Below are positions 30,130 to 34,474 of a DNA stretch of 64,000 nucleotides, in pieces. The position numbers were made by a program, and so were the translations under genes. The notes under the pieces were generated by a model. That model did not search any database and was not told where the DNA came from. It saw only the letters and a list, made by a program, of their open reading frames with translations. This DNA comes from Sebaldella termitidis ATCC 33386 (GTDB taxonomy: Bacteria; Fusobacteriota; Fusobacteriia; Fusobacteriales; Leptotrichiaceae): contig NC_013517.1 in assembly GCF_000024405.1 (NCBI RefSeq), positions 4,123,989 to 4,187,988 of the forward strand, written 5' to 3'. Every line of letters starts with the position of its first letter. Within the stretch, counting starts at the first letter, position 1.

Positions 30130-30699
30130 TTATCTTAACTGACCTTTCTTCCATTTTATTATCCAGTCTTTATACTTTATTCTCTGACCTCTGTTTAGTC
30201 CCATAAATCGTCTTTGCGGTATCTTTCTTTTGGGACTTCCAAAATTATGCACAGCTGCATATTTCATACTTGTCCCTACTATTGCTTCTGTCTTTGTATG
30301 CCTTGCTTTTATTGATCCTCTTAAATAGCCTTGATCCTGTAATATTTTTGGTCTCGTACTTTGTCTTTTCTTCCCAGCTCGAAACAAACTGGATGCTCCT
30401 CCTTTATCAAGTCCCATCTCTGCTTCTATCTCTTTATATGTTTTGCCTCGGCGTCTTCTTGTCTTTACTTTTCTCTGAGCTCTGGTTAAGCCCTGTCTTC
30501 TATTCAGTGTACTTACTGCTAATCCTTTCCATGGCCTGCCTTCAGGATCTACCTCATTTCTAAACCTTAGCCCTACTTCTTTTTCCATATCTTTTGATAT
30601 TTTTGCTGTAAGGAAAGTTACATCATACATATTCTTTACTGCCTGTACTCTTTTCTCAAGATTCTTCAGTTTTTTCACCACTTTAAATTTAGGCTTCAT
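30130..30699 (-). CDS. Phage virion morphogenesis protein (Mu gpG / tail completion type)
   Basis: The 189-residue, very basic protein has the gpG family signs FRNEVDPEGRPWKGLAVST near residue 50, LQDQGYLRGSIKARHT in the middle and YAAVHNFGSPKRKIPQRRFM near the end. It likely helps join head and tail. Its start overlaps the end of the portal gene by 11 nt, suggesting coupled translation. Confidence 0.8.
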   Translation of the reverse strand: MKPKFKVVKKLKNLEKRVQAVKNMYDVTFLTAKISKDMEKEVGLRFRNEVDPEGRPWKGLAVSTLNRRQGLTRAQRKVKTRRRRGKTYKEIEAEMGLDKGGASSLFRAGKKRQSTRPKILQDQGYLRGSIKARHTKTEAIVGTSMKYAAVHNFGSPKRKIPQRRFMGLNRGQRIKYKDWIIKWKKGQLR

Positions 30700-32875
30700 A
30701 TCCTGTCACCTTTTCATACAATTCATTCACTGCTTTTTCCTTCTGATTTACCTGCTTCTTTATACCTGATATGTAGTTTTCGCCTATGTTTCCTGTAAAG
30801 CCTTTTTGTGGTTCTCCCTCAGGTCTTCCTGTTGTTACTGAATAACCATATGTTTGTAAATCTTCTTCTGATAATGCTATTACTCTGCTTCTGCATTTGA
30901 AATGGTTTGGAGGATAGTAATTCATCCAAAACGGATCATCCAGTCTGTATATCTTCCCGTCCAGTTCTCGACATATCACTGTTTCTCTGCCGTCTATTAT
31001 GGCATCATACAAACCGTAGATGAATCCATACTGCATTCCTTCCTGTAATTGTTCCCAGTGACCTACACTTTGGGCATTTATCATTGTCTGGTCAAATACC
31101 TGCCTTAGATAATATCCGTCTTCTCCAAAGCCTAAACTATCAATGTCTAAGTTATTTTTAAAATCATCGAACGTCTGGCCAAGTTCCAGATTCTTCAGTA
31201 ATTCTGCATACAATATTTTTGTTACTTCTAGGTCCGTACTTCTTTTTATCCAGAAGTAATTAGTCCTGTATCTCTCCATTACTCTTTGAATCTGATCATA
31301 CATTTGAGGTTCTCTTGATAACAGCCAGTTTGTTGCTTCATTAAAAGGCATTCTGAATATATCCTGAAAGTCTTCTGGAGTATATGAAGCAAATTCTTTT
31401 TTCTGTACTTTATCCCTGTCTTTGATTGTTAAATACTGTCCCCATAATTCTGATAAGATTAAGCTGTTTTCATGCTCCTTTATTCCTGTATCTATATTCT
31501 GGATATCTTCTATAGAAGTAATATTTTTTATTTGATTCACTATCTTTTTACTAATATCTGGTACTATTCTTTTCCTGAGTCTTTCCAGATATTCAAGTGT
31601 CTTTTTATTACTATCTTCAGTATTTTTCTTGGAAAATTCTGTAAATGGATTTGTAATCTGCTGTTCTTTCTTTTTAAGTGTCTTATACCCGAATATTTCT
31701 TGTAGCTCTGTATCCTCTATCTCATACCCTGCCTGTGATAGCTTTACTATCAGGTCTGCTTTTTTATTTACTTCGTCCTGCTCCAGATTCTTTATTTCAA
31801 GTTCTTTTTTCCGATCCTGCTGCCTGTTTATTTCTATGTAATACTGATTAGGATCATATCCGTGGATTAAGCCGTCTATATCTATAATTTTATCTAATTC
31901 TTCCCTTACAAAAAGAGCAATCCCGTCTTCTACTTTTTCTTTCTCTTCCTGATGGATTGTTCCAAGTGCCTGTGTTCCTTTTCCACTTGCACTGCCATCA
32001 TTTAAGGTTAAGGTACTTCCCAAGATATTCTGAAAGATCTTTTTTTCCAGTTTTTCCATTAGTAGTGTATGGATTTCTACATTAAGATCAGCAAGCCTCA
32101 GTAATACAAGATTATCTTTTAAATTCCCATCACTTGGCATCCCAACAGAATTTCCATCCATCATTTTTTTTAGTTCCAACGCTGTTTTCATAACTTCGTC
32201 GTCTTCTAATGCTGTATTGTAGCCAAACAAAACTATAGTTCCACCGTACTTTTCTATTATCCCATTCATCTTACCTTTGATATATTTTATTTCTTCATAG
32301 GTCTTTAGTATCGGCTTTAGCAGAGTTTCCCCGTATGGTTTAGTTACATCCTCATTGTAAATTGATACATGCCACTTCATCGGATTATTTAAATATATCT
32401 TCTCTGATAATTTACTCTGTATGTAGAATAGCTTTTTTTCCTTGTCATACCGGATTAATTCTCTTGGGATAAAATCCAGTCTTTCTATTTCAAACTTATC
32501 ATTGTAGATTACTTCATGGACTGTTATTTTGAGGAATGGTGTTTTGGCCAGTTCTCTGATAAAGTTTATTTTCCCCTTTATGTTGTTTATCCGTTTTTGA
32601 CCTTCTTCAATCAGTATATTTTCTTCCGGATTATTTATTTTTCCATTTTCACTGGTAAATATTAGTTCCCTTGATGTTATTCCTCGCACTAGTGTGGATA
32701 CCGCTGTATTTATATCAATATATTCGTATATTTCCTGTAATTCTCGTGCTTCATAGACATTTCTGTATTCAATATCATAGCTGTTTATATCTATCACATT
32801 TCTGGCTATATTTTGGAGCACTCTTTTATCAGTTACGTATGAAGGTTCTCTTGGTTTTTTATTTTTCCAAAACAT
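30689..32875 (-). CDS. Portal protein (DUF935, Mu gp29-like) fused to MuF head-morphogenesis domain
   Basis: The 728-residue protein joins two proteins that are usually separate in Mu-like phages. Residues ~1-430 are a DUF935 portal (YEARELQEIYEYIDINTAVS, then GKGTQALGTIHQEEKEKVED). Residues ~500-700 are a MuF domain ending in VICRELDGKIYRL and YYPPNHFKCRSRVIAL, the typical His/Cys-containing signature. The portal is the DNA channel of the procapsid, and MuF is a minor head protein. It follows terL by 2 nt. The length and the continuous frame support a genuine fusion. Confidence 0.85.
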   Translation of the reverse strand: MFWKNKKPREPSYVTDKRVLQNIARNVIDINSYDIEYRNVYEARELQEIYEYIDINTAVSTLVRGITSRELIFTSENGKINNPEENILIEEGQKRINNIKGKINFIRELAKTPFLKITVHEVIYNDKFEIERLDFIPRELIRYDKEKKLFYIQSKLSEKIYLNNPMKWHVSIYNEDVTKPYGETLLKPILKTYEEIKYIKGKMNGIIEKYGGTIVLFGYNTALEDDEVMKTALELKKMMDGNSVGMPSDGNLKDNLVLLRLADLNVEIHTLLMEKLEKKIFQNILGSTLTLNDGSASGKGTQALGTIHQEEKEKVEDGIALFVREELDKIIDIDGLIHGYDPNQYYIEINRQQDRKKELEIKNLEQDEVNKKADLIVKLSQAGYEIEDTELQEIFGYKTLKKKEQQITNPFTEFSKKNTEDSNKKTLEYLERLRKRIVPDISKKIVNQIKNITSIEDIQNIDTGIKEHENSLILSELWGQYLTIKDRDKVQKKEFASYTPEDFQDIFRMPFNEATNWLLSREPQMYDQIQRVMERYRTNYFWIKRSTDLEVTKILYAELLKNLELGQTFDDFKNNLDIDSLGFGEDGYYLRQVFDQTMINAQSVGHWEQLQEGMQYGFIYGLYDAIIDGRETVICRELDGKIYRLDDPFWMNYYPPNHFKCRSRVIALSEEDLQTYGYSVTTGRPEGEPQKGFTGNIGENYISGIKKQVNQKEKAVNELYEKVTGYEA

Positions 32876-32877
32876 TT

Positions 32878-33739
32878 CTACACTCCTATTATCTTTCTAG
32901 TTAAATCTATTCCTTTTTTAGGCTGTTTATATATTGCGTATCTCATTGCATCTATTATATGGTTAAAAGCATCTACAGGTTTATTTAACACTCTGCTATC
33001 CTTTGTATCCCATATATAACTTGAAAATTCTGTTATAGTATTTACACACTTTGGATGAATGTATATTTTGTATTGCTGTAAAAGCTGTATTCCATGGAGT
33101 ATACTGTCTTTTCCCTTTACTGAGGGCTTTATTCTTCTTATTCCGTACCTTTTTATTTCCTCTATACTCTTCTGTTCGGCTGAATCTCCTATTATTTCCT
33201 CTTTTTCATAACCCATATATTTAATCTGATTTGCTATTTCATCATTCAGCATACCCTTCTTGTAGAATTCATCAAATACATATATTTCTTTATTTTTCTC
33301 ATCTTCAAGATAACCTATGAATGCTGATGGATCATTCGTATATCCGAAGTCAAGTCCGAATCTTGAAACTACTCCTTTTCTTTTAGATACTTCTCTGTAA
33401 TCAAATTCTTTTTCTTCCCAGTTTTCAAATATGAGACCTTCTGCTATTCCCCATTCTGCTTCACCTTCTACTCTGTATCTTTTAGGATTATCCCGTTTCA
33501 TCTTTTCAAAAATTCTTTTATCATCTTCACCCAAGAACTCATTCACTTTGTAAGTTGTAGTTAATGCAAGTATATCCTCGTCTTCTGTATCAAAGAATCT
33601 TGCTTTCAGCCAGTGTCTTTCATTCCATGGATTAAAAGTAAATGTTATTTGTTTCCAGAGATGATCAGGTAATTTTCCCCTTATGGATAAATCCAGTTTA
33701 TTAAAGGCATCCTCATCCATTATTTGATATGCTTCTTCG
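32878..33739 (-). CDS. terL: Terminase large subunit, exon 2 (nuclease part)
   Basis: This is the 3' exon of terL, read after removal of the intron at 33740-34088. The exon starts with the C that completes an Ile codon, giving I-E-E-A-Y-Q-I at the junction; E-E are the catalytic carboxylates after Walker B. It then carries the packaging-motor remainder and the RNase H-like nuclease (FGLDFGYTNDPSAF with catalytic Asp, IGDSAEQKSIEEIKRYG, and VDAFNHIIDAMRYA). An internal ATG at 33720 would allow only a truncated product. With exon 1 the total is 1,248 nt, or 415 residues, the usual size of PBSX-type terminases. Confidence 0.85.
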
Positions 33740-34088
33740 CTTTATGTTACGAATAAACCGTTTCCGTTTATCCTCTGCATGTTTCCATACAGTTCAGACT
33801 ATATCTTCACTCATTTGAGTGCTCCCCGTTTCGAATTCACTTGAATCCTACTCTACTCATCAGAACATTTTCTACTTTCGATAGTCGTTGAACGTTCATA
33901 ATATTTCTACATGTAATATCTACTTTCTTTAAAATACTAGTCTTCAATGTATTTTTGTATATCACATGTATACTTTCCTTGTTTTTTAATCTTATTATGC
34001 TTCGCTGCTGATTGCCCTCTAAATCAATTTAGTTAGGGTGTTCCAGCAATTAGAGGAGTTTATTTTTATGTGCTGAACCGATTTCTTA
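33740..34088 (-). ncRNA. Group I intron (349 nt, no ORF) in terL
   Basis: All core parts are visible on the minus strand. P1 pairs exon GCUGGAU with the intron guide GGUUCAGC and leaves the U-G pair at the 5' splice site. P3 is CUCCUC with GGGGAG, P4 is UGCUG with CAGCA, and P5 is CCCU with AGGG. P7 is GACUA in the R element (GTTCAACGACTA) with UAGUC in the S element (AAGATATAGTC). P8 is CACTC/GAGTG. P9 has a GAAA loop, and a further hairpin near the 3' end follows. The last intron base is G. The 54-nt stretch between P7 and P3' suggests subgroup IA. Precise removal restores the terL frame. No homing endonuclease is encoded. Confidence 0.9.
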
Positions 34089-34474
34089 ATCCAGCACCAA
34101 CACAAATATCCTTCCGATACTGTTATTGATGTTAATTTTAGTGGATCATCAAGCCCTCTGAACAGGATTTTCTGTCCTGTTGGTTTAAATATTAGTTCTA
34201 AAGGACTCTTTGATGATTTCCATAAATGTCTTACTCCAAGTCTGTTTATTGCCCATTCCAGATCTGAATAACAGCTTTGCCTTAAATTATCAAATACTTT
34301 TCTTACAACTAAAGCATTCGCCTCTCTGTATTTCATTATGTGATAGATTAACCATAACGCTGTCGTCCTGCTCTTTTTACTTCCACGGCTTCCCTTCACT
34401 GCTCTGTATCTTTGCCTTGAATTCCAGAATGTGTTGTATCCTTTGCCTATTACTTCACTTAGTCTTATTTCCAT
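34089..34474 (-). CDS. terL: Terminase large subunit, exon 1 (ATPase part)
   Basis: This is the 5' exon of the packaging ATPase, 128 codons plus two bases. Walker A is KGSRGSKKS (residues 27-35), and the Walker B strand is GYLCWCWI at the very end, where the intron begins within the Ile codon. Without splicing translation would run into the intron and stop at 34019, giving a useless 151-residue fragment. The gene starts 3 nt after the terS stop. TerL cuts concatemeric DNA and pumps it into the procapsid through the portal encoded next. Confidence 0.85.

Follow-up and report, generated by a model that had tools for sequence, protein, structure and literature searches.

An interrupted terminase gene in a resident prophage

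The window, by which we refer to the whole 64,000-nt stretch of DNA that was analysed, carries on its minus strand a gene for the phage terminase large subunit (terL), which lies in a prophage resident in a Fusobacteriota host and is surrounded by terS and by genes for portal/minor-head, capsid, tape measure, holin, primase-helicase, integrase and repressor proteins. One ORF of this region (728 aa, minus strand, 30689-32875) combines portal-like and minor-head-like parts in a single protein. As it stands, terL reads as two ORFs of 151 codons (34474-34019) and 280 codons (33720-32878), the former reaching to 34019 and the latter beginning with an ATG at 33720. Removal of 349 nt (34088-33740), by a cut after 34089 and rejoining before 33739, yields one terL frame of 415 codons plus stop, and the coordinates, length and phase of this insert, together with the length of the spliced product, are exactly those that a preceding sequence-only reading of this DNA had claimed (Table 1).

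Profile comparisons favor the joined frame. Against PHROG_3717 (terminase large subunit) the joined TerL scores 270.6 bits, versus 130.1 and 114.1 for its parts, and against Pfam Terminase_3 it scores 193.1 bits, versus 96.4 and 70.5; with each profile it exceeds the sum of the parts by about 26 bits, a surplus of the kind expected from a correctly restored junction. Both exons are under strong purifying selection in comparison with a same-genus relative designated L094 (dN/dS of 0.11 in the first exon and 0.05 in the second), although this estimate spans all the time since the two diverged and would therefore accommodate a very recent decay of terL. The residues brought together at the junction, W-I-E-E, align with FFDE of a solved TerL (5oea), and W128, E130 and E131 are invariant in 80 of 80 TerL relatives from viral contigs. 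By this alignment the junction is the region of TerL that holds the Walker B acidic residue together with the catalytic Glu, which is also where the sequence-only reading had placed it. A functional TerL would require splicing, since the 280-codon ORF, read from M136, would lose both E130 and E131, and we infer that such splicing occurs here.

Table 1. Window positions of the two terL exons and of the predicted intron with its structural elements
Feature	Position	Strand	Evidence or remark
Group I intron of 349 nt, lacking protein-coding ORFs of known kind	33740..34088	-	RF00028; same-site homologues L094, L133, L146, L147; covariation
terL exon 1 (codons 1-128 plus the first two bases of codon 129)	34089..34474	-	PHROG_3717 / Pfam Terminase_3 N-terminal half; purifying selection
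terL exon 2 (remaining base of codon 129 to stop)	32878..33739	-	Pfam Terminase_3 C-terminal part and Terminase_3C; intronless paralogue colinear over junction
Exon 1 part of P1 (5' strand), GUGCUGGAU; ends with the U of the splice-site U.G pair	34089..34097	-	
Internal guide sequence GUUCAGCAC, P1 3' strand	34070..34078	-	9/9 pairs; compensatory changes with exon in G013, L147
P3 5' strand CUCCUC	34053..34058	-	Partner 33822-33827
P4 5' strand UUGCUG	34044..34049	-	Partner CAGCAG 34005-34010; unchanged in 5 introns
P5 hairpin	34014..34038	-	Compensatory change CCC/GGG to UCC/GGA
P6a and long loop, CAUAAUA/UAUUAUG	33897..34000	-	Paired in all five introns, sequences differing
R motif GUUCAACGACUA, P7 5' strand	33882..33893	-	
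P7.2 hairpin, IA-type extension	33833..33847	-	Compensatory changes
P3 3' strand GGGGAG	33822..33827	-	Partner 34053-34058
P8 hairpin	33808..33821	-	Compensatory changes
S motif AAGAUAUAGUCU, P7 3' strand	33796..33807	-	
P9 hairpin, GAAA loop (L094: GUAA)	33775..33792	-	Double-sided changes; L094 loop also GNRA
P9.1 hairpin	33752..33772	-	Double-sided changes
Terminal (omega) G	33740	-	G in 5/5 same-site introns

Predicted fold and same-site relatives of the insert

The Rfam group I model RF00028 matches 33775-34101 over its entire length (model positions 1-253 of 253) with an E value of 2.8e-14 and a score of 58.6 bits, only moderately higher than the gathering cut-off of 50 bits, and this is the sole RF00028 match in the whole 4.49-Mb genome. 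A scan of the full window at the gathering threshold returned no match whereas a scan of a short stretch did, evidently an effect of the fast filters of Rfam. The intron region is more stable than each of 100 dinucleotide shuffles (z -5.8). Its fold includes P1, in which a U.G pair lies at the splice site, together with P3, P4, P5, P6a, P7 with its R and S motifs, P8, P9 with a GAAA loop, P9.1 and the terminal G; these are, P6a and P9.1 apart, the very elements that the sequence-only reading had listed in proposing a group I intron with these borders. P1, formed by GUGCUGGAU and GUUCAGCAC, sets U34089 opposite the guide G and covaries with the exon among relatives, while P10 with the 3' exon is weak, comprising 3 bp only. 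An insert of the P7.1/P7.2 type lies between P7 and the 3' strand of P3, with covariation in P7.2, and the intron is one which we take to resemble that of T4 td (td-like IA2). It had been described as ORF-less, and indeed all six of its frames are closed, the longest open stretch being 63 codons without a recognised domain; no homing endonuclease gene, in the form of an ORF of known kind, was found in it. An intein is excluded, because stop codons occur in every frame of the intron.

Empty versions of the site were found at close range and more widely. A second, intronless TerL, 86% identical, is encoded on the same chromosome, and its DNA aligns without gaps over the junction; likewise, all 80 TerL relatives from viral contigs (55-62% identical) are uninterrupted there, so that the intronless comparison named as a check in the earlier reading bears out the predicted junction, as does the RF00028 match, which that reading had likewise named as a check. 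The family was scanned with RF00028 (33 genomes), and a further 98 genomes were covered at the peptide level. Four more introns are known to us at the same terL site: L094 in the same genus, L133 (genome G013) in the same family, and L146 and L147 on viral contigs. That of L094 interrupts the same base, is 358 nt long and is ~80% identical to the window's; the cores are nearly identical, and the P6a loop and P9 helix have been rewritten. The window P9, CUGUAUG-GAAA-CAUGCAG, is CUGUGCA-GUAA-UGUACAG in L094, a helix rebuilt around a loop that stays GNRA. The L133 intron (862 nt, same codon) houses a NUMOD4-HNH_3 gene (Pfam NUMOD4 and HNH_3) in its P6a loop, as does the 858-nt intron of L146, the HNH of which is 75% identical to that of G013. 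The L147 intron is again ORF-less (300 nt, RF00028 86.6 bits). All five agree in codon, phase, helices and terminal G, and no published description of these same-site terL introns was found in the open-access literature searched.

Putative signals for expression accompany the two HNH genes. Upstream of each lies a near-consensus sigma-70 promoter, TTGACA-17-TATCAT (L133 1972-2000, minus strand; L146 ~2883-2911), with its -35 box inside the 5' strand of P6a; in L133 it matches at 11 of 12 positions. Directly after the L133 HNH gene, in the P7.1 region (1371-1388), lies a terminator-like hairpin (AAGAGCC..GGCTCTT followed by a T-run), which could terminate HNH transcription or impede that of terL.

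A scripted count over ten hand-picked helices in the five introns gave standard pairing for 289 of 290 core base pairs and double-sided change for 22 of the 58 pairs; when strands are swapped between different introns, pairing drops to 79%. An unaided RNAalifold run likewise found double-sided changes in 25 of 80 pairs. P4 and P7 are the same in all five introns, and the support for these two helices comes from sequence conservation only. Judged by sequence and covariation, the terL insert is a group I intron, and we hold with high confidence that it is a self-splicing group I intron, probably of the td-like IA class, in a prophage terL and a probable derivative of an HNH homing intron. In the late transcript, the intron RNA would fold and bind guanosine at P7; the cut would follow U34089, the partner of G in P1. 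Exon 1 would then be joined to exon 2 past G33740, which would rebuild codon 129 and with it the W-I-E-E motif (Walker B/catalytic Glu).

Competing explanations and history of the intron

That TerL is instead made as two separate polypeptides, with the 349 nt serving as an ordinary spacer, is scarcely credible: ORFs of 151 and 280 codons do exist, but the latter begins at spliced M136, without E130 and E131 (invariant in 80/80), and the would-be spacer is a scored, covarying ribozyme. We also consider it very improbable that the intron is dead, with a decayed core, terL reduced to a pseudogene and the prophage unable to package. Such a reading would suit the fact that terL splicing is deduced here, and that the HNH gene, and hence any self-maintenance by homing, is absent. 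However, the core is intact and has undergone compensatory changes since the divergence from L094, both exons remain open in frame and evolve under strong purifying selection, and structural, replication and integration genes are recognisable nearby.

Nor is there an appreciable chance that the insert is a fragment of an IStron, a composite of a group I intron and an IS200/IS605 or IS607 element. IStrons carrying IA2 introns occur in Fusobacterium and Leptotrichia (PMC4227781), and RF00028 matches reach 17 per genome in related genomes; yet the window intron has no transposase ORF, follows UGGAU rather than TTGAT, ATTAT or TTTAT, ends in AAAG rather than in the TCAG of the group A IStron 3' end, and is single-copy in its genome. 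Moreover, related introns in the same codon bear HNH rather than IS genes, and blastn similarity to the multi-copy introns of the family extends over only 27-30 nt.

Returning to the reading of the insert as a self-splicing intron, its most likely ancestor would be a homing intron whose P6a loop contained a NUMOD4-HNH endonuclease gene. Genes of the NUMOD4-HNH_3 type are carried by the L133 and L146 introns and not by that of the window, and comparison of the five suggests that the window, L094 and L147 introns are ORF-less derivatives of an HNH-bearing homing intron, the window copy probably having arisen by loss of its HNH gene. Searches of the P6a loops of the window and L094 introns for remains of an HNH gene yielded no significant match; this loss is therefore argued by parsimony from the relatives, and the direction may have been the opposite one, with the HNH gene gained by the L133 and L146 introns instead. 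A search of the whole host genome for a relative of the G013 HNH found none, a negative outcome that carries little weight.

We infer homing as the route by which the intron entered. DNA identity between the window and L094 reaches 97.5% over the 40 nt of exon 1 that adjoin the intron, but falls to ~70% farther upstream and to only ~40% in the end of terS; the sharp step in identity within exon 1 (34089-34474) would fit co-conversion during homing, or phage mosaicism with a breakpoint at this place. An ORF-less intron might also be kept for the benefit of the phage, either because its presence in the codon would render terL immune to HNH endonucleases of rival phages that target this site or through splicing-dependent late packaging, a proposal that we regard as rather unlikely.

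Relation to described introns and significance

Group I introns in terL have been described in several phage groups. They occur in Bastillevirinae, in which those of SIOphi and phiAGATE have been shown to splice (PMC11878797), in Jug phages (PMC12363816) and in phages of S. thermophilus, including Streptococcus phage 2972 (PMC6356513). The hosts of these phages are not Fusobacteria, unlike that of the window prophage, and the intron of phage 2972 occupies another TerL position. The closest precedent for the site is Lactobacillus phage LL-H, for which PMC4299906 cites the terL group I intron of Mikkonen & Alatossava (1995). In the TerL of LL-H (NC_009554; AVWF/EEFANL, the slash marking the intron), the positions as compared here place the intron at the codon homologous to that in W-I-E-E of the window (W-F/E-E). 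The last third of the two introns is 72% identical over 92 nt and their 3' halves are alike in architecture. They differ in that the LL-H intron (~837 nt) contains an HNH gene, ORF168, 37% identical to the G013 HNH, whereas the window intron is ORF-less; in addition, the terminal base of the LL-H intron is not clearly G, and the two TerL proteins are only 32% identical (residues 1-126).

Other positions in the TerL family of the window are also occupied, namely RGL/DDPLK (Lactobacillus phage LBR48, G014 and L221), FNP (Silence and L155) and residue 317 (L174). The LBR48 intron is 83% identical in its 3' part to the window intron over 121 nt; it and that of G014, found in TerL proteins of the same family, lie ~20 codons upstream of the window site and carry GIY-YIG genes rather than HNH genes. 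Elsewhere, three RF00028 introns were observed in a single terL region of Vibrio phage 1.193.O (L082).

Fusobacteria are known to harbor other group I (IA2) introns in the form of the IStrons FnISt1, FnISt2 and LbISt1 (PMC4227781), which differ from the window intron in being mobile via IS200/IS605 transposase genes and in their target motif and 3' end. In family genomes G002, G005, G010-G014, G016 and G017 (L092-L110), we observed up to 17 RF00028 matches of ~349 nt in each genome, mutually similar over ~800 nt, which are most likely putative IStrons; the IStron of Leptotrichia buccalis has been reported as single-copy, and such high copy numbers may be unreported. The suggestion of the sequence-only reading, which knew of no group I introns described in fusobacterial phages, does not hold for Fusobacteria at large in view of the IStrons. 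On introns in prophages of Sebaldella or Leptotrichia, no paper was found in the open-access literature searched. The class of intron is old and its insertion site has a precedent in LL-H, while the host group is, as far as the open-access literature searched shows, new for a phage intron of the homing type.

At the level of annotation, the gene call is corrected to one intact TerL in place of two broken ones. More broadly, a small family of introns, both HNH-bearing and ORF-less, occupies one catalytic codon in Fusobacteriota prophages and viral contigs, and with LL-H included, group I introns are seen to have settled in the terL Walker B codon of phages from two bacterial phyla. The empty, ORF-less and HNH-bearing versions of this site constitute a natural series for the study of intron gain and the loss of homing genes.
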